In this document: positions 2,161-26,180 of the stretch, in pieces
How positions within the stretch are numbered: the stretch's first letter is position 1
How the letters are laid out: each line of letters opens with the position of its first letter
From: a virus
Length of the DNA stretch: 36,542 nucleotides
IMG/VR virus record: IMGVR_UViG_3300047472_000088
Span: 1 to 36,542 of that record
Strand: one strand, 5' to 3'
Translations under genes and position numbers: made by a program
The notes under the pieces: generated by a model
Database searches by the model: none
The model's input: only the letters and a program-made list of their open reading frames with translations
Told to the model about the DNA's origin: nothing

Positions 2161-2400
2161 GTGTTCCCCTTGTGTCGGCGGGAGGCGTGGGCGTCCCGCG
2201 GATCGAGAATTTCCTGCAGCGGCCGGGATGAAGTCCACAGCCTTGTCTTGGTCGGTTGCGCTGAGCTGCCTCGCGTTAGGTGGTGGGCCTTGGTTCGGCC
2301 CCCTTGGTGGAGGTGACGCAGTTGAGCGGCGGGTGACCAAAGTTGTGCCCCCGCGCGGCGGCTGCGTGAGCCGGTCGTCGCGCGGGGAGTTCGTGGGCGG
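2161..2400. other. Intergenic segment with GC hairpin
   Basis: A 240-bp stretch without a convincing gene. The main structure is a 9-bp perfect stem (CCCCGCGCG / CGCGCGGGG, 2349-2357 with 2379-2387) just downstream of the 55-residue ORF that ends at 2401. No T-tract follows on either strand, so it may be a weak terminator, an RNA stabiliser or a processing site. The AAGGGG ribosome-binding site of the next gene is at its left edge. Confidence 0.4.
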
Positions 2401-13837: not shown

Positions 13838-13999
13838 GTGCCCAACCAGCCAGCGACTCCGCTGATCGCGTTCCGGGCACCGGACGAACTCCGGGATGAG
13901 TTGCAGCGCATCGCTGACGATCGCGGCGAGTCGCTCTCGGATGTTGTGCGGAGTGCGTGCTGGGAACTCGTGCGCCGCTACCCGATGGGCGAGTCCTGA
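13838..13999 (+). CDS. Ribbon-helix-helix (Arc/CopG-like) DNA-binding protein
   Basis: A 53-residue plus-strand protein from GTG 13838. It has the RHH outline: a β-strand (TPLIAFRAP), helix 1 (DELRDELQRIADDRG), turn, ESLSDVVRSACWELVRRY. The S-x-S-D-V-V-R start of helix 2 is characteristic. RHH proteins bind DNA as dimers through the strand. It converges on the integrase gene and overlaps its end by 22 bp, so it may be a regulator of integrase/lysogeny; a toxin-free antitoxin-like gene is less likely as there is no partner. A TATAAC box is 23 bp upstream. Confidence 0.65.
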   Translation: MPNQPATPLIAFRAPDELRDELQRIADDRGESLSDVVRSACWELVRRYPMGES

Positions 14000-15315
14000 G
14001 CGGCGGATAGGGCGAGCGGTGGACCGGCAGCCAGGCCAGTGGCTGCGAACGCCAGCGACGCCGCCGCACCGGCCTGCGCCTGCGCGTCGGGCATCAGGTG
14101 GCCGTAGAGCCGCTGCGTCGTGAGGTAGTCCTCGTGACCGAGCCGCTGCTGAATCACGTCGAGACGGATGCCCTGGGCGATCAGCCATGACGCGTGGGTA
14201 TGGCGGGCGTCGTGGATGCGCGGCCGGAAGTTCAGAGTCCCGGCGCAACCGCACGGCTCAGGCAGGATGGTATAGCCCTTCTCGTCCTTCTCCGGGTGGA
14301 CCAAGCAGAGCTGCGGCTTGCCCGCGAGGCATCGGCACTTCGGTGCGCGGTGGTCGGCGCAGATGGATGCCCGGAGCGTCGCTGGCTTCCAAACGCGGTT
14401 GAAGAAATTGCTGTGCGTGACGGGCTCGCCTGAGAAGGTGCGGAACAGGAACCCCTCCCGTGCGCCGGTCAGCAGCGGCTCGACGACGTCGACCACCTCG
14501 AGCGGGATCACGATCGTCCGCTTGCCCGCCTTCGACTTCGGGGGGCCGAGGTGCCGGGGCTTCTGCTTCCACGACCGGATGACGCGCATCGTGGGCTCGG
14601 GGAGCCAGAGGTCCCCGTCGTGGCGGCCGGCGTTGAGGTTGAGGTCGCGCTCCTGGGCGGCGGTGGTCTCTGAGAACCGGGTGCCCATGCCGAACATCCA
14701 CACGAGCATCGGGCGCCACCGTTCTGAGAACTCGCGGTAGAGGACGTCGAACTCGGAGTGCGTGAGGAACATCGGGTCGTCTTCGTCCTCCTCGCCTGCC
14801 CGGCCGATGCGCACACCGCGGGCGGGGTTCGCGCGGATCGCTTCGGGCCACTTGTCGACGGCGGTGTTCAGGGTGGCTGAGAGGACGGAGTGGGCGTTGG
14901 CGATCGTCTTCGGCTTCCCGGTTGCGCTGTTCACCCAGCGGGCGATGTCGGCGCGTTCGATCTCGTCGATGCGCAGCGTGCCGAGCTTGGGGAGCCAGGA
15001 GCGTTCGGAGATGGCGAGGTAGTCAGTGCGGGTCCGCTCCTCGACTCCGGTGATGTTCTCGACGTGGTAGATGAGCGCTTCGCGGACGGTGGGGACGTAG
15101 CCGTCGGAGCGGGTGTCTTCGCGGTCGCGGAGTTCGATGGCGCGCGCGGGGCCGATCGCGGGGTCGAGCATCCGGGAGATGAAGACGTTCGCGGCGATCT
15201 CGGTGGGGAAGGTCTCGGTGCTCTGCTTGCCGTTGACGCGGAGCCGGACGCGCCAGGTGGTGGTGCCGTCGGTCTTCTTGTAGGCCACGGCCTTCGGTGC
15301 GAGCTTGCGTCCCAT
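13978..15315 (-). CDS. int: Tyrosine integrase with six-cysteine insertion
   Basis: A 445-residue tyrosine recombinase from ATG 15315. It has an arm-binding N-terminal region (1-65), an SAM-like core-binding domain (75-165) and the catalytic domain with R213 (GTRFSE), Lys near 262-265, H368 and R371 (HDARHTH), H394 (RLGHED) and nucleophile Y404 (RLYGH). Residues 319-357, between the second strand group and HxxR, carry an unusual insertion with six Cys and nearby His (CADH, CRC, CLVH, CGC) that could bind zinc. The attP site is upstream at 15.7 kb. Its start shares the A of the preceding TGA. The C-terminal tail is Ala-rich. Confidence 0.92.
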   Translation of the reverse strand: MGRKLAPKAVAYKKTDGTTTWRVRLRVNGKQSTETFPTEIAANVFISRMLDPAIGPARAIELRDREDTRSDGYVPTVREALIYHVENITGVEERTRTDYLAISERSWLPKLGTLRIDEIERADIARWVNSATGKPKTIANAHSVLSATLNTAVDKWPEAIRANPARGVRIGRAGEEDEDDPMFLTHSEFDVLYREFSERWRPMLVWMFGMGTRFSETTAAQERDLNLNAGRHDGDLWLPEPTMRVIRSWKQKPRHLGPPKSKAGKRTIVIPLEVVDVVEPLLTGAREGFLFRTFSGEPVTHSNFFNRVWKPATLRASICADHRAPKCRCLAGKPQLCLVHPEKDEKGYTILPEPCGCAGTLNFRPRIHDARHTHASWLIAQGIRLDVIQQRLGHEDYLTTQRLYGHLMPDAQAQAGAAASLAFAATGLAAGPPLALSAAQDSPIG

Positions 15316-15629
15316 CAGGGCCGCCAGTTCTCGTCGTAGTCCGGGTGGTCGGCGTACACCGCGGCGAGAGGGTTGAGGACGCTCTCCCAGTACCACTCGC
15401 CGCTGGAGGTCTCGGCCCACTCGACAATCTTCCGCTTGGCCTCGCACTCGGCCAGCGCCCGGGAAGGCTCGATGCAGAGAAGGTCGTACTCGTCGTGCCA
15501 CGAGAGGAGCCACGGCTCGAACGGCTTCTGAGCGCCGATCTGTCGCGCCACGAACTGAGCGCGCTCCTCGTCCTCGGCAATGCGGGCCAGCAGGAAGGCG
15601 GTCAGCGTGAGCGTCGCGGTCTCGGTCAT
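15315..15629 (-). CDS. DUF6221-like protein
   Basis: A 104-residue protein from ATG 15629 that sits between attP and int. It matches the DUF6221 pattern seen in actinobacteria and their phages: TLTAFLLARIAEDEERAQFVA at the start, DEYDLLCIEPSRALAECEAKRKIVEW in the middle, and LAAVYADHPDYDENWRP at the end. The function is not known. GGAGGT lies immediately before the ATG, closer than usual. The gene's upstream region overlaps an arm-type site, so its expression, and that of int, may be affected when integrase binds. Confidence 0.7.
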   Translation of the reverse strand: MTETATLTLTAFLLARIAEDEERAQFVARQIGAQKPFEPWLLSWHDEYDLLCIEPSRALAECEAKRKIVEWAETSSGEWYWESVLNPLAAVYADHPDYDENWRP

Positions 15630-15736: not shown

Positions 15737-15912
15737 TCCGAGACTCACTCCGAGGGGAGAAGGTAAACATGCAGGTCAGAGCCCCTTTTGGTGTGCGTCT
15801 ATACGTGCACAAGCCTGATCGCTAGTGGTCATAGGTGCAAACGTGCACATTGGGCGGAAGTGGCTCCCGGGGTGGTGTCCGCGATCCTCTGCGCGACCAC
15901 GTCCGGCGGGCG

Positions 15913-16272
15913 ATGATGGACGACATGACCGAGCGCACCGCGCCCCCGCCAGGCTGGTACCAACACCCAGGCGACCCGACCGTGATGCGCCACTGGGACG
16001 GCCGAGAGTGGACCGGACACACCGCGCCCACCGGAACAGTCGAGGCCGCGCGGCCGACAACCACCGGGGCGCCCGACGAAATCCCGCCGCTGCTGAACCC
16101 ACGCTCCGGGTCACACCTCGTCACCGTCGGCGTGGTCAGCGCGCTCCTCCTCCCCATCGTCGGGATCGTCATCGGGATCGTCCTGCTGTTCAAGGAACGC
16201 GTCGGGCCAGGGCTCGGCTGCATCCTGCTCGGTGTCCTCGCGACGTTCGTGACCTACGCGCTGCTCGCCTGA
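15913..16272 (+). CDS. DUF2510 membrane protein, possible superinfection immunity
   Basis: A 119-residue plus-strand protein; ATG 15913 is chosen, with 15916 and 15925 also possible. It starts with a DUF2510 motif (PPPGWYQHPGDP, then RHWDGREWTGHTAP), followed by a linker and two membrane helices (VVSALLLPIVGIVIGIVLLF and LGCILLGVLATFVTYALLA). DUF2510 membrane proteins are common in actinobacteria. A two-helix protein expressed from the lysogeny region right beside attP is a good candidate for a superinfection-immunity or lysogenic-conversion factor. Function is inferred. Its 3' end overlaps the convergent gene by 19 bp. Confidence 0.65.
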   Translation: MMDDMTERTAPPPGWYQHPGDPTVMRHWDGREWTGHTAPTGTVEAARPTTTGAPDEIPPLLNPRSGSHLVTVGVVSALLLPIVGIVIGIVLLFKERVGPGLGCILLGVLATFVTYALLA

Positions 16273-19673: not shown

Positions 19674-19838
19674 CTACTCGTCGCCGACGTTGGCTCGCGC
19701 GACACCGACGACGGGGGCGAGGAGCAGCGCCCACGCCGCGGCCTGCTCGCCGTCGATGAGGCCGTAGACGACGGCGACGCCGATGGCGGCGAGGGCTGCT
19801 TCGTAGAGGCGCTTGCGGCGTGCGGGCGTGAGCTTCAT
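19674..19838 (-). CDS. Holin-like membrane protein
   Basis: A 54-residue protein from ATG 19838 (ATGA overlap with the EEP gene). It has a basic start (MKLTPARRKRLYE), a first hydrophobic helix (AALAAIGVAVVYGLI), a short DGEQ turn and a second helix (AAAWALLLAPVVGVARA). Two helices joined by a charged turn fit small class II holins. The lysis context supports the call. Confidence 0.6.
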   Translation of the reverse strand: MKLTPARRKRLYEAALAAIGVAVVYGLIDGEQAAAWALLLAPVVGVARANVGDE

Positions 19839-20503
19839 CGGGTCTCCTTGTGCTGGCGTGGGTGGTGGACGGTGATGCCGACTGCGTTGTGATCGCCGTC
19901 GACATCGACGACGCGCTTGTTCGTGACGCGCCAGGACTGGGGCACGAGGATGCCGATGAGGGCATCCATGAATGTCTGCTTGCCGGTGGCTGGTTGGACT
20001 GCGCGGGCGAGCTTGTTGAAGTCGCCGAGGTCTGCCCCCCGTGGGCCGAGGCGGCGCATCATGGGCTGCCAGATCGCCCAGAACCGTTTGGGGGGTAGGT
20101 GCGCGACACGGAACTTGCGGAACCGTCGGCCGTCGACCCTGCCGCGGATGACGAGGATGTGCCGGGTCCGCATCCCGATCCGCCGGCCGTTGATGAAGGG
20201 GCGGACTCCGGTGCGGTACTTGACAGTCACCTCGGTCAGCCGCTTCGTGTCGATGATCGCGGCGACCCCAGCCTTGTCGAGCGGGCCGCGTTGGATGAGT
20301 CGGAGGTCGCGGTCGTCGCCGACGAAGGGCGCCCATTCGATGGGCTTCACCTTCAGCAGCAGCGACGCCTCGACGACGCCGGTCACCACCGCGTTCGGGA
20401 ACGCGCGCAGGGTCTTGTGGACGATGCGCGCGGACCGTTCGGGCGCGACTCCGCTCCCCGCCATCGCGTTGCAGACGACGAGGTCGAACGATGTGTGGGT
20501 CAT
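19835..20503 (-). CDS. Endonuclease/exonuclease/phosphatase (EEP) superfamily protein
   Basis: A 222-residue protein from ATG 20503, preceded by GAGGAG. It has the DNase I-like motifs: N12 (VVCNAM), E45 (TGVVEAS), H135 (RVAHLP), GDFN (D161, N163) and DGDHNAV (D204, H205). These are the metal and catalytic positions of EEP enzymes that cut nucleic acids or phosphoesters. An enzyme of this kind inside a lysis cassette is unusual; degradation of host DNA or removal of phosphate groups from wall polymers or lipids are both possible. The N-terminal region has no signal peptide. It is coupled to the holin-like gene downstream. Confidence 0.7.
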   Translation of the reverse strand: MTHTSFDLVVCNAMAGSGVAPERSARIVHKTLRAFPNAVVTGVVEASLLLKVKPIEWAPFVGDDRDLRLIQRGPLDKAGVAAIIDTKRLTEVTVKYRTGVRPFINGRRIGMRTRHILVIRGRVDGRRFRKFRVAHLPPKRFWAIWQPMMRRLGPRGADLGDFNKLARAVQPATGKQTFMDALIGILVPQSWRVTNKRVVDVDGDHNAVGITVHHPRQHKETR

Positions 20504-20526
20504 CGCGGCTCCTCATGTTTAGTGCC

Positions 20527-20563
20527 GCTTGACATGAAGTGTCTAGCGATGCTTTAATTGGGC
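20527..20563 (+). promoter_or_regulatory. Near-consensus promoter and operator of the inserted plus-strand unit
   Basis: A perfect -35 box TTGACA (20529-20534), an 18-bp spacer and TTTAAT (20553-20558). The -10 box ends five bases before ATG 20564 and no ribosome-binding site is present, so the transcript should be leaderless. A 21-bp imperfect palindrome GCTtGACA-tgaag-TGTCtAGC (20527-20547) covers the -35 box and could be the operator for the HTH protein that follows. Confidence 0.7.
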
Positions 20564-20893
20564 ATGGCAAAGATGACGGTCCAGGAGTTCGCAGACGCCA
20601 ATGGCCTGGACGCAACAGTGATCGCGGACGGCATGGAGGTCGACGTCAGCGAACCGGTGGGAGCACCTCGCATCCGCCAGCACCTACGCGCAGTCGAGGC
20701 GAGCGTGGTGGCCGAGTTGACCGACGCACAGGAGCGCGTCGCCTACGCCCGGGAGGATCTGAAGAGCGCTGAGGCGATGCTTCAGGAGGAAGTCCGGAAC
20801 GCGTTACAGGACGGACTGTCGGCTATTCGAATCGGCGAGGTGCTCGGCGTCAGCCGGGCGCGCGTCTACCAACTGAGGGATGGAAAGCGATGA
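20564..20893 (+). CDS. HTH protein of the inserted unit
   Basis: A 109-residue plus-strand protein from ATG 20564, whose start coincides with the predicted transcript start. Residues 1-35 are mixed (MTVQEFADANGLDATVIAD), residues 40-82 look like a coiled coil (LRAVEASVVAELTDAQERVAYAREDLKSAEAMLQEEV), and the end is a compact HTH (ALQDGLSAIRIGEVLGVSRARVYQLRDGKR, 82-109). A coiled-coil dimer with an HTH fits autoregulation through the palindrome at the promoter. It is coupled by ATGA to the pyrophosphohydrolase. Plus-strand position within late genes marks it as a moron. Confidence 0.7.
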   Translation: MAKMTVQEFADANGLDATVIADGMEVDVSEPVGAPRIRQHLRAVEASVVAELTDAQERVAYAREDLKSAEAMLQEEVRNALQDGLSAIRIGEVLGVSRARVYQLRDGKR

Positions 20894-21294
20894 CCAACCA
20901 AGCGACCGAGATTGGGGCGATCGACGCAGCCCACCTCGCGAACCAGCGCGACTGGTCCGAGCGCACGTTCGGCCCAGGCTCGCGGCTGCTCGGAGTGCTC
21001 GACCACATCCGCAAGGAACTGGTCGAGATCGAGGACGATCCGACCGACGTCGAGGAGTGGGTGGACGTCATCATCCTTGCCTTCGATGGCGCGTGGCGGG
21101 CGGGCTGGGAGCCCCAGCAGATCATCGACGCGATCAAGGCCAAGCAGGCGAAGAACGAGGCCCGGACGTGGCCTGACTGGCGCGGCGTGCCTGCCGATCA
21201 GGCGATCGAGCACACGTCGTGCGGGTTCCACGCCTGGGGTGCCGATGACCGCTGCGTGACCTGCGGCGACCCTCGCGTCATAACGCCCGACTAG
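20890..21294 (+). CDS. DUF550 / MazG-like nucleotide pyrophosphohydrolase
   Basis: A 134-residue plus-strand protein. The core matches DUF550 dATP/dGTP pyrophosphohydrolase-like proteins: DWSERTFGPGSR, LDHIRKELVEIEDDPTDVEEWVDVIILA and KQAKNEARTWPDWR. The MazG-type metal residues are E43/E46 and E56/D59. The C-terminal 25 residues add a Cys/His-rich end (SCGFHAWG, RCVTCG) that may bind zinc. MazG-like enzymes hydrolyse (d)NTPs or alarmones and can shift host physiology or block other phages. The stop TAG overlaps the stop of the convergent endolysin gene (shared CTAG). Confidence 0.75.
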   Translation: MTNQATEIGAIDAAHLANQRDWSERTFGPGSRLLGVLDHIRKELVEIEDDPTDVEEWVDVIILAFDGAWRAGWEPQQIIDAIKAKQAKNEARTWPDWRGVPADQAIEHTSCGFHAWGADDRCVTCGDPRVITPD

Positions 21295-21812
21295 CGCTTC
21301 GGGATGGCCCGGAGTCGCTTGAGCCGGGCGTTGATCCGAGCCTTCCGCTCACGCAGCCGCACGATCGTCGCAGCGGCCCACGCAGGACGTGCGGGAGGCG
21401 GGTTGGGGATCGTGAGGCCGGTGATCGTCTCGGACCAGCCGGTGTACTTGACGCCCATGCTGCGCTCGATCTGCGCGATGGACGTGGTCCCGACGACGCC
21501 AGCCTTGTAGCCGCTGGCCGTCATGTCGGTCGAGCGGATCTTCCCGCCACCGAGCGACACCGCGCGATGACCGAAGCCCCTCGACCCACCAGAGAACGCG
21601 ACCGGCACACCACGCGGGGGGTTGCGGTCAGTGTGGCGTGCGCTGATCGGCTCCGACTTCCAACCATCCACCGCATCCGCGTCACCATCACGATCCTGGT
21701 CGCCGGCAGACGGCGCCCCGAACTGAGTCCGGGTCCAGAGCTGGCAGGTTCCGGGGACGTTGGTCCGCGCAGCCTCAGCGTTCCGTGCGGCCTGCTCGCG
21801 AGTGTTCACCAT
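21291..21812 (-). CDS. Endolysin-like cysteine peptidase/amidase
   Basis: A 173-residue protein from ATG 21812, preceded by AAGGAG. It has the CHAP/NlpC-P60-like outline: C23 in PGTCQLWTR, H82 in FGHRAVSLGGGKIRSTD, and D96 as the likely third residue. Between them lies a Ca-binding-like loop (DQDRDGDADAVDGW, 38-51) resembling a dockerin repeat, and a conserved DRNPPRGVPVAFSGG. The C-terminal 35 residues are basic (RLRERKARINARLKRLR) and may bind the wall. The adjacent XhlA-like gene supports a lysis role. It has no signal peptide, so export would rely on a holin. Confidence 0.7.
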   Translation of the reverse strand: MVNTREQAARNAEAARTNVPGTCQLWTRTQFGAPSAGDQDRDGDADAVDGWKSEPISARHTDRNPPRGVPVAFSGGSRGFGHRAVSLGGGKIRSTDMTASGYKAGVVGTTSIAQIERSMGVKYTGWSETITGLTIPNPPPARPAWAAATIVRLRERKARINARLKRLRAIPKR

Positions 21813-21873
21813 GACGGGCTCCTTCGGGTCGTGCGTGCGGGTGGGGGTCAGTTGCCGTCGTGCAGCGGGTGCA

Positions 21874-22140
21874 TCAACGAGTGCCGTAGATGACGCCGAA
21901 CAGGACCATCAGCACGCTCATCGCAGCCGCCATCGCAGACAGCGCAGGCCAGATCGGCTTCGGCTTGTTCGACTCGATCGCCGCCAACACATCGGTACGC
22001 ATCAGCCGCACCTCGTCACGGAGACCACCAAGCGCCGTCTCCGTCGCGGCCTGCTTGATCTCGACACCACGCACACGCGCGTCGAGGTTGAACTGCGACA
22101 ACATCTCGTCGCGGACCTGGCCCAGCGATGGCTCAGACAT
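21874..22140 (-). CDS. XhlA-like holin/membrane protein
   Basis: An 88-residue protein from ATG 22140. The first 58 residues are charged and helical (VRDEMLSQFNLDARVRGVE, ALGGLRDEVRLMRTDVLAAIES), consistent with a coiled coil, followed by one membrane helix (PALSAMAAAMSVLMVLFGVIY, 64-84) and a short tail. This is the architecture of XhlA-type proteins that work with a holin in lysis. It precedes the endolysin gene and overlaps the minor tail gene upstream by 8 bp. Confidence 0.65.
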   Translation of the reverse strand: MSEPSLGQVRDEMLSQFNLDARVRGVEIKQAATETALGGLRDEVRLMRTDVLAAIESNKPKPIWPALSAMAAAMSVLMVLFGVIYGTR

Positions 22141-23287
22141 TCGTGCCCTCCTGGGCCTCTAGTGCGTCAACGCGGGCCGAGAGGACACGGAAGCCAGCGA
22201 GCAACGCCGTCACCATCGCGCCCTGGTTGATCGAGAACGGAAGCCCCTCGACGTCGCGGTTCACGAGGTACTCAAGCCCCGTGTCCGCGACCTCCTCAGC
22301 GATCGTTCCGAGGAAGCGGCGGTCCATGTCGCCCTCGACCGTCGGGTCACCGTCGTTGCGGGTGTAGGTCTTCGTGACGATCTGGAGGAGCGCCGCCACG
22401 ATCCCCGCCTCGTCGGCGGGCTCGATGTTCTCCTTGAAGCGCCGCGACGACGAGTCGATGTGGATGCGCCCGTCGGCGCCCCGCATGACAACCGGGGACC
22501 CGCTGCCCGTGGGGAGGGTTGTGGAGAAGAACGCACCCGTCGTCTTAGCGACACCATCCACGTACACGTCGCCGACAAGGTCGATGGTCGCGGACCGGAG
22601 ACTGGTAGCACTCGCACCCGTCGCGCCGCCCGCCATGCTCAGGACACTGGACTCCGTCGCCGTCGGGAGCGTGCCCGACGCGAGCGTGATGCCCGGCATC
22701 CCGAAGAGCGCGAACGGGTTGACCCCACCGGGAGCCTCGCCGTCGATCCCGGAGTAAGCCTCCAAGATCCCACCGCTGCCGTCGTTGCGGAGCACGAGAC
22801 GCTCACCCTCGTCATCGTCGGCAGTCGCAATGTAGCCGCCGATGATCCTGCGAACAGGGAGGACACCAGGCACCGACTCGATGCGCTCGAGGTCGTCAGA
22901 CAACAGAACCTCGACAGGTTCGTCATACCCACCCTCAGGCCACGCGTCCCGATCGCCGAACGGGATGTCAACCTGGGCATCGTCGCCGAGACCCAGAGTC
23001 ACGAAGAGCGTGTAGTCCTTGAGAACCTGGCCGCTCGTGACCACATCGACACTGTCGCCATCCGTCGCAGCCACCGCGAGCGGGACCGACAAGGTCACGG
23101 TCTCCGCAACCCGGTCCACCCCGGAATACTCCAGGTCGACACCATTCAGACGCAGCGTGCCGCCCGTGTCAGCGAAGTCGCCAACCCAGTCGACCTCCAA
23201 CGCCGTCGCACCAACCGACGCAGCCGCAACGAGCTCGCTGCCCTGGTTGACGAGCTTGCAGCCCGTCGCCCAACCCCGAACAGACAT
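22133..23287 (-). CDS. Minor tail protein with S74 intramolecular chaperone
   Basis: A 384-residue protein from ATG 23287 (ATGA overlap; an alternative TTG is one codon earlier). Residues 1-150 are β-rich (ATALEVDWVGDFADTGGTLRL). The last 110 residues match the peptidase S74 intramolecular chaperone domain: SSSRRFKENIEP, the LLQIVTKTYT segment, DRRFLGTIAEEVADTGLEYLV and INQGAMVTALLAGFRVLSARVDALEAQ. This domain trimerises tail fibres and cuts itself off at the Ser before RRFKEN. The protein is therefore likely a trimeric fibre or tip component. Confidence 0.78.
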   Translation of the reverse strand: MSVRGWATGCKLVNQGSELVAAASVGATALEVDWVGDFADTGGTLRLNGVDLEYSGVDRVAETVTLSVPLAVAATDGDSVDVVTSGQVLKDYTLFVTLGLGDDAQVDIPFGDRDAWPEGGYDEPVEVLLSDDLERIESVPGVLPVRRIIGGYIATADDDEGERLVLRNDGSGGILEAYSGIDGEAPGGVNPFALFGMPGITLASGTLPTATESSVLSMAGGATGASATSLRSATIDLVGDVYVDGVAKTTGAFFSTTLPTGSGSPVVMRGADGRIHIDSSSRRFKENIEPADEAGIVAALLQIVTKTYTRNDGDPTVEGDMDRRFLGTIAEEVADTGLEYLVNRDVEGLPFSINQGAMVTALLAGFRVLSARVDALEAQEGTNV

Positions 23288-24435: not shown

Positions 24436-26180
24436 CAGGACTCCCAGGGAAGCTCGTCGCGGGTCTGCCACCACTTGAACGAGATCTCGTAAGCGAGGGG
24501 CGAATCGGTGCCGTTGAGGGGCTCCACCATCAGGTCGCCGATCGTGACGGGGATGTTCCGGTCGCCATACGACATCCGGTACACCCGACCCTGACCGGAA
24601 CCCTTGAAGCCCATCGCGGTCGCCTTCATCCGCTCGGCCGTCAGCATCGGGTCCGTGCCGTCGATCAGGACACCCGACACCGCACCACGCGGCGGTGGCT
24701 GACCTGCACGGCGACGAACCGGAGGCGCGTCGCCGAGGATCTCGTGAACCACAGCACGCTCGTCCCACGAGACCTCGGTGAACTCGTGGTCCACCAGGAA
24801 CACAACCTGGGTCCCGACGAACAGCCACAGGCCCGGCGGACGGAGCAGCACAGACGCAGTCGGACCGTTCGGGCCAACACCACTGTCCACGACGGGCAGC
24901 ACCCGGTAGGCGTACTTCCGGCCCGGCTCGGCGTAGTAGTCACGCCACGCACGGAGGGAGCCGTCAACCCGGTCGATCCACACACCGTCGCGGACGATCT
25001 GCCACTCGTCAGCGTCCGCACCAGCAGACCAAGCGAGCCGCACATAGGGGTGGATGCCGGCGGACGCCGTCAACGTGTCGACACCCGGAGTCGCAGCGAG
25101 CGCCACAAGCTGCGTCGTCAGGGTGCCGCGAGAGAAGATCGCCTCGCCTGCCGTCGCCACCCGGTCCACGTTGTCCCACACGTCGACCACGATCCGCATC
25201 GACTGACCGACCCGCTTCATCCCCTTCGACGGGGTCCACTCCTGGTCGGCACCACCCTCGTACCCGGAGTCATCCAACAGCGCCCCGGAGGTCGCGTCGA
25301 ACACCCGGACACGCCAAGCAGCCTGGTCGGTAGCAGTCCACGTCACAGGCGGGGTCTTGTCGCCCGTGGTCGCATCCGGCGACGTGATGGTCACCGTCGG
25401 CTTCGCCAGCCACGAGAACACGGCAACGTCAGACCACGAAGACCACCCGTTCGCGTTCTTCGCCCGCGCAGCCCAGTAGTACGGGACGCCCTGGGTCGGC
25501 GTGAACAGCCCGGTCGTGTCGACCAGGCCAACCCCGGTGAAGATCTCCGCAGACGTGACAGCCCCAGTGAGCGCAGGGTTGGTGGCGATCTTGATCTGAA
25601 CCGACGTCGTGTCATCTGGGACCGCGAACGACATCGTCGGCGTCGGAGTCGACACCGCCGCACCATCCGGAGACAGGTCGACAGGGGCGTCACCGGGGAC
25701 GATGTACTCGAGGTCCAGGTAGGGCGGGTACACGCGGCCCTTGGAGCCGACGATCATGACCCGGCTGGTGTCGTTGGTGGTGATCCGCCAACCCCGGTTG
25801 ACCAGCGACCCCGCGACGATCGCCTGCACGTCGGCGATGATGTCGATCCGGAACTGGGTCCCCTCGGGGACGGCGCCAACCGTGACGCTGTGGGACGCGC
25901 CACCGAGAGCCGGACGGTTGTTCCACGTCGCCTTGCTGACCTTGAAGTTCGCCGCGTTGCGCTGGGCGCTGATCGACCGCGACCCACTGAGGCCAAACCG
26001 GACGGTACGGAAGACCAGATCGGCCTTCGTGATGACCGCGTTATCCGGGATGTCGGCCGGGACGGTGACATGGATCAGGCCACACTCAGACCCGGAGTCG
26101 AGGGCCAGCGACGCGACCTCGCCGTAGTTGTACTTGGGCTTCGCGTCGCGCGTGGACACGGTGGTGATGTTGAGTCTCAC
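24435..26180 (-). CDS. Minor tail protein with DNRLRE-like and fibronectin-like domains
   Basis: A 581-residue protein from GTG 26180 (GTGA overlap). Residues 1-165 match the DNRLRE/disaggregatase-like β-sandwich (NAVITKADLVFRTV, FKVSKATWNNRPALGG, WRITTNDTSRVMIVGSKG, YPPYLDLEYIV), often a carbohydrate-binding module. Residues 170-400 contain fibronectin type III-like units (PTPTMSFAVPDDTTSVQIKI, PYYWAARAKNANGWSSWSDV). The C-terminal region (RDGVWIDRVDGSLRAWRDYY, VVFLVDHEFTEVSWDE, VYRMSYGDRNIPVTIGDL) resembles a distal tail protein. Together these suggest a host-binding tail-tip protein. Confidence 0.7.
   Translation of the reverse strand: MRLNITTVSTRDAKPKYNYGEVASLALDSGSECGLIHVTVPADIPDNAVITKADLVFRTVRFGLSGSRSISAQRNAANFKVSKATWNNRPALGGASHSVTVGAVPEGTQFRIDIIADVQAIVAGSLVNRGWRITTNDTSRVMIVGSKGRVYPPYLDLEYIVPGDAPVDLSPDGAAVSTPTPTMSFAVPDDTTSVQIKIATNPALTGAVTSAEIFTGVGLVDTTGLFTPTQGVPYYWAARAKNANGWSSWSDVAVFSWLAKPTVTITSPDATTGDKTPPVTWTATDQAAWRVRVFDATSGALLDDSGYEGGADQEWTPSKGMKRVGQSMRIVVDVWDNVDRVATAGEAIFSRGTLTTQLVALAATPGVDTLTASAGIHPYVRLAWSAGADADEWQIVRDGVWIDRVDGSLRAWRDYYAEPGRKYAYRVLPVVDSGVGPNGPTASVLLRPPGLWLFVGTQVVFLVDHEFTEVSWDERAVVHEILGDAPPVRRRAGQPPPRGAVSGVLIDGTDPMLTAERMKATAMGFKGSGQGRVYRMSYGDRNIPVTIGDLMVEPLNGTDSPLAYEISFKWWQTRDELPWES

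Follow-up and report, generated by a model that had tools for sequence, protein, structure and literature searches.

A probable self-regulated, leaderless operon on the counter-strand of the late region in a temperate phage, with a recurrent HTH regulator and a predicted dGTP pyrophosphohydrolase

MazZ of cyanophage S-2L (7ody) is an enzyme of the DUF550/PF04447 family. The roles of its ligands and residues have been described; I56 and D60 are kept in all MazZ-1 enzymes, and E34 is not conserved in this group (PMC8342488). The DUF550 enzymes of Z-phages hydrolyse dGTP/dATP (PMC12884076), and for a cyanophage MazG, which neither binds nor cleaves (p)ppGpp, dGTP and dCTP are the preferred substrates (PMC6850273). 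In addition, defence genes that are expressed from mycobacteriophage prophages are known (PMC6426596, PMC7542560). Morons and DUF550 enzymes are already known; a description of a regulator family of HTH proteins with their own operator was not found. Here we describe a locus at which such an HTH gene and a DUF550 gene are joined.

The window, i.e., the whole stretch of DNA that was analyzed, is the entire IMG/VR record IMGVR_UViG_3300047472_000088 (36,542 bp, 67% G+C). Besides an integrase and a Cro/C1-type regulator, PHROG matches were obtained for a RecE-like exonuclease, RusA, a methyltransferase, terminase, portal, protease, scaffold, capsid, tape measure and tail genes, and this gene set indicates a temperate siphophage. 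The relatives of the portal are from actinophages (best 41%). A DUF2510-domain gene adjoins the integrase (15835-16272, plus strand) and is another candidate for expression in the lysogen. The label "lysis cassette" refers to the holin and to the endolysin-like gene, the latter without a Pfam match. The features are as follows.

13197, plus strand: Cro/C1-type regulator, PHROG match
13978-15513, minus strand: integrase, PHROG match
19674-19850, minus strand: holin (phrog_6116, 7.9e-12)
19835-20503, minus strand: late gene, function not assigned, with its ribosome-binding site directly left of the operator
20526-20548: putative dyad operator CGCTTGACA-TGAAG-TGTCTAGCG, overlapping the -35 box, 8 of 9 arm pairs
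20529-20558, plus strand: promoter TTGACA-18-TTTAAT (-35 at 20529-20534, -10 at 20553-20558, ATG at 20564)
20545-20553, plus strand: family-wide element AGCGATGCT (AGC-N3-GCT), abutting the -10 box, 10 nt before the ATG
20564-20893, plus strand: HTH protein, 109 aa, predicted leaderless start (phrog_686, 9.3e-13)
20890-21294, plus strand: DUF550/PF04447 MazZ-like protein, 134 aa, predicted dGTP pyrophosphohydrolase, overlapping the HTH gene as ATGA
21215-21276, plus strand: portable C-x2-H-x7-C-x2-C tail module, 62 nt, 90% identity
21291-21294: CTAG, common to the stops of the DUF550 and endolysin-like genes
21291-21812, minus strand: endolysin-like protein, flanking late gene

An earlier note on this DNA had described two coupled plus-strand genes within a leftward late operon, and the sequence confirms this arrangement. 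The DUF550 gene is predicted to be translationally coupled to the HTH gene via the ATGA overlap. A Shine-Dalgarno motif of the GGAAAG type is present upstream of the DUF550 start, and none upstream of the HTH start. The TTTAAT hexamer ends five bases 5' of the HTH ATG, and the CTAG stop shared with the endolysin gene is also present, both in agreement with that note. The promoter is missing from a standard promoter scan, because its -10 box has T instead of the usual A at position 2; the aligned -10 boxes of relatives are TTGAAT, TACGAT, TACACT and TAGAAT. The palindrome that had been noticed over the -35 box is real and slightly longer than claimed. The window contains about 129 dyads of 9 bp (gaps of 0-12) of the same quality, and the palindrome was, thus, rejected as proof on its own; its meaning was tested by comparison with the promoters of homologous HTH genes. 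These promoters have the element TGTCWAGCGRTGC of the dyad region in common. A search for a second operator in the window yielded two-mismatch matches at chance level only.

The HTH protein matches the PHROG 686 profile (E 9.3e-13), and its predicted structure contains a 49-residue helix (residues 34-82) followed by a C-terminal HTH (residues 87-106). The long helix of the model would suit dimerisation. When phages were searched by tblastn with the HTH protein, 15 records were returned, all of them Mycobacterium phages, and the recognition helix of the relatives is RVYQIRDG. Relatives recur in actinophages, often on the counter-strand at the tail/lysis boundary. The homologue in Mycobacterium phage Ibhubesi, which we take to be an F1-type phage and whose record says Cheoctovirus, is gp25. 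In Ibhubesi and in Saroj the HTH gene is opposite to the late strand, flanked by a minor tail gene and the lysin block, and the stop of gp25 overlaps the stop of the tail gene by 4 bp. The Saroj gene is unannotated (L082:3001-3204, about 25353-25556 of the record, minus strand), and gp26 has been called opposite over it.

One full-length relative was detected among 393 genomes from the order to which Nocardioides sp. PD653-B2 belongs, and it is also present in IMG/VR (L127). In this Nocardioidaceae prophage (L123/L127) the homologue is 43-47% identical and has no DUF550 gene alongside. Its gene is again on the plus strand, within a late operon that runs leftward, inside the lysis cassette, one gene away from the slot in the window, and the endolysins of the two phages are 59% identical. 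The promoter of the prophage reads GTCTAGCGATGCTTGAATGAGTCC-ATG and that of the window GTCTAGCGATGCTTTAATTGGGC-ATG. The gene at 19835 is not homologous to its counterpart in the prophage, and relatives of this gene and of the tail gene at 23287 were not found for an empty-site comparison. The prophage also contains a second counter-strand set between endolysin and tail genes (L123:10829-11616, plus strand), which encodes a Cys-rich protein, a different HTH protein (PHROG 5497) and a 105-aa protein.

The family was enlarged to 36 HTH loci by an alignment-based scan, including Ibhubesi (L085), the Nocardioidaceae prophage and several mycobacterial contigs. Most of these loci contain AGCGCGCT or AGCGRTGCT near the HTH start, and the HTH promoters have TGTCWAGCRRTGCT in common, the final T of which opens the -10 hexamer. 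With 5-14 nt before an in-frame start as the counting range, an AGC-N2/3-GCT element is present in 18 of 26 HTH ORFs, where it ends 7-14 nt from the start, versus 54 of 1,751 control ORFs (3.1%); the controls were the other ORFs of the same loci, and the test chooses among possible start codons also for them. After merging of related loci, 8 of about 14 groups have the element (binomial 2e-9, an optimistic value, because the pattern was picked after inspection). The geometry is clearest in the window, L123, L085, L136, L138-L140, L152, L142 and L128, where the element is flush with the -10 box and the gap from the -10 box to the start is 5-8 nt, which indicates a leaderless or near-leaderless start. 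The window gene belongs to this group, with AGCGATGCT before its in-frame start. The 14-mer TGTCWAGCGRTGCT has a single perfect match in the window and a single one in the 49 kb of Ibhubesi, in both cases at the HTH promoter.

The element is absent from several distant HTH relatives. It is also not exclusive to the family, because similar elements precede unrelated TetR-type genes of Nocardioidaceae: in L171 and L174 (position 1501) host genes of this type have a leaderless start a few bases after GTCTAGCAGTGCTAGGAT, which resembles the operator element of the phages. In an exact promoter scan of viral contigs, the known prophage was accompanied by no more than two matches, both AT-rich and due to chance. 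A literature search for the string AGCGCGCT retrieved no description of the element in phages among the matches listed. The pairing of regulator and site recurs in many actinophages and has probably been overlooked until now.

The operator and the start spacing are conserved over the HTH family, and the Nocardioidaceae prophage has a lone HTH gene with a nearly identical promoter in its lysis cassette. For these reasons the leaderless start of the HTH gene, proposed in the earlier note, is strongly supported, and autoregulation by the HTH protein, also proposed there, is likely. The protein would dimerise by its long helix and occupy its own -35/-10 region by binding to the dyad and to the AGC-N3-GCT element, and when bound it would limit transcription of its own gene and of the coupled enzyme gene. 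We infer repression rather than activation; an HTH protein sited only at its own promoter could also activate. The promoter should have no need of a phage activator and would be active in the lysogen, with self-limited output.

The regulator may act beyond itself on late-strand genes, including lysis genes, because its site overlaps a divergent promoter or adjoins the ribosome-binding site of the late gene that follows. The divergent promoter that is overlapped by the element in mycobacteriophages belongs to a small secreted-protein gene; it has the form TTGACA-17/18-TANNNT in Ibhubesi, L136 and L142 and is weaker in others. The small secreted-type protein of about 88-107 aa is encoded divergently to the HTH gene in L085 (region 2321-2397, minus strand), L136, L138, L139, L140, L142 and L152. 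The leader of its gene contains a conserved hairpin of 13-14 bp between the promoter and the ribosome-binding site, in which a few pairs are compensatory.

It is, thus, conceivable, albeit doubtful, that the HTH protein is mainly a local late-strand switch, which either represses the divergent promoter or stops leftward late transcription ahead of the downstream lysis genes and keeps them silent in the lysogen, the enzyme being incidental. In the window, in the Nocardioidaceae prophage and in F1-type phages, the operator immediately precedes the following late-strand gene, within the lysis block or ahead of it, and the good divergent promoters of Ibhubesi, L136 and L142 fit such a switch. No plus-strand terminator was found at 21294-22411, and the transcript may therefore run antisense over the endolysin gene, which would help the switch. 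Against it, the divergent candidates are weak in the window (TAGACA-18-TAAACA) and in the prophage (TAGACG-17-TAGACA), where the divergent side directly adjoins the ribosome-binding site of the following late gene, and a far-upstream promoter probably drives the late genes. As a tentative, broader proposal, to which we give somewhat more credit, the loci may form an unrecognised class of small leaderless HTH switches with an AGC-N2/3-GCT operator at the tail/lysis boundary. In lysogeny they would control their own expression and that of the neighbouring late-strand gene (for a secreted protein, a holin or lysis), and they could gain passengers, e.g., the dGTP hydrolase predicted here.

The DUF550 protein matches PF04447, "dATP/dGTP pyrophosphohydrolase", with an E value of 1.5e-27 (96.1 bits, cut-off 23). 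S-2L MazZ (7ody) is its only sequence match in the PDB and the top fold match of its AlphaFold model (pLDDT 86; prob 1.00, TMt 0.72-0.79). As in the earlier note, E43, E46, E56 and D59 stand out: they are invariant in 34 aligned sequences, form an ExxE...ExxD metal site, and correspond by profile alignment to the S-2L ligands E35, E38, E50 and D53 (numbering of PMC8342488, from which the printed 7ody chain is offset by 6). Of the guanine determinants, I62 corresponds to I56 and D66 to D60, and both residues kept in MazZ-1, the guanine-specific group, are, thus, present. Further matches are K85=K76, N89=N80, R92=R83 and W94=W85, and the position of S-2L E34 is occupied by K42.

The guanine site of MazZ is kept, Z-phage DUF550 enzymes act on dGTP/dATP, and dGTP is among the preferred substrates of the cyanophage MazG. 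Therefore dGTP is the best prediction and the likely substrate, and the enzyme would very probably cleave dGTP (perhaps GTP) to the monophosphate and PPi. The earlier note had offered a dNTP or an alarmone hydrolase. The first part holds as likely, based on PF04447 and the MazZ fold; the second is unlikely, in view of the characterised phage MazG without (p)ppGpp activity (PMC6850273) and the conserved guanine site. The homology to MazZ might also suggest a role in the 2-aminoadenine (Z) DNA pathway, but neither a PurZ-type (PF00709) nor a DatZ-type (PF12917) gene was found in the record, which may be incomplete. This role was therefore rejected as highly improbable.

Relatives of the enzyme are carried by 202 phage records. 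Those examined have replication or nucleotide genes as neighbours, such as RecE/RecT or nucleoside deoxyribosyltransferase genes. This would fit an ordinary auxiliary metabolic gene for nucleotide house-cleaning or lytic dNTP-pool adjustment that has moved into the lysis block. We regard this reading as rather unlikely, as the gene lies outside the early operon, on the strand not used by the late genes, and has a promoter that is probably self-regulated. A prophage-expressed defence, in which the enzyme depletes dGTP and starves superinfecting phages while the HTH autoregulator restrains it, would agree with the leaderless promoter of constitutive type, the predicted activity and the defence genes of mycobacteriophage prophages (PMC6426596, PMC7542560). 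The PADLOC profiles gave only noise (E about 0.04), and the early or replication region of most relatives examined points to lytic nucleotide metabolism. The anti-phage action that the earlier note suggested is an unlikely reading.

This HTH gene is nearby in 0 of about 80 viral DUF550 loci, and it recurs without the enzyme; a conserved HTH-DUF550 pair was rejected. HTH protein and enzyme are separable: the conserved part is the regulator-operator unit, and the enzyme is a passenger, seen only here.

The Cys/His tail of the enzyme, also listed before, is C111-x2-H114-x7-C122-x2-C125. Its 62 nt (window 21215-21276), which encode SCGFHAWGADDRCVTCGDPR, are 90% identical to L117:5999-6060, the 3' part of an unrelated prophage-like gene of Nocardioides sp. 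PD653-B2. By this sequence comparison the tail is a separate module, apparently shuffled recently between two unrelated prophage-type genes. That it binds zinc is only a guess, because the model confidence of the tail is low. Both the best HTH relative and the tail module come from the Nocardioidaceae, and the phage host is therefore probably a member of this family or close to it.

Taken together, we assign a probability of about 0.6 to the explanation that the locus is an autoregulated, leaderless two-gene operon on the counter-strand, composed of a recurrent HTH-operator module and a passenger dGTP hydrolase. The comparisons establish the coding of both genes, the geometry of promoter and start, the common operator, and the fold and active site of the enzyme. 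The HTH-operator unit would be an old, recurrent actinophage module, and the DUF550 enzyme would have been gained in this phage. The benefit might be control of the dNTP pool, either against superinfecting phages or for house-cleaning; depletion of dGTP should burden the host, which counts against this explanation. Anonymous "hypothetical" wrong-strand genes of phage late operons, thus, become a regulator-operator family that can be tested, as its binding site, start codon and transcript are predicted. As Ibhubesi and Saroj grow on M. smegmatis, the regulator part is directly testable. The enzyme, predicted to destroy dGTP, belongs to the Z-DNA pathway family and is found here in a second setting, a phage without detected PurZ or DatZ.

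Compared with known systems, the enzyme resembles S-2L MazZ in fold, metal ligands, guanine-contact residues and size of the catalytic domain. In contrast to MazZ, it has no PurZ/DatZ partner, carries the extra Cys/His tail, and is encoded on the counter-strand in a lysis block, coupled to an HTH gene. The HTH protein resembles PHROG 686 and Ibhubesi gp25 in the C-terminal HTH (RVYQIRDG) and the counter-strand position between tail and lysin genes, and gp25 also in the stop overlapping a neighbouring late gene, the operator element and the (near-)leaderless start. Unlike it, gp25 has 67 aa and lacks the N-terminal extension; it is not accompanied by an enzyme gene, and a strong divergent promoter also overlaps its operator. 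The Nocardioidaceae prophage shares a full-length HTH homologue, a related lysis cassette and a near-identical promoter core, but it lacks a DUF550 gene, the HTH slot is displaced by one gene, its operator consists of two direct copies 23 bp apart, and further plus-strand genes are present elsewhere in the cassette. Like the defence genes of the mycobacteriophages Butters and Sbash, the pair would be an accessory of a temperate actinophage that is expressed in lysogeny; this likeness is a lead only, and no sequence relation between those genes and the pair was found.
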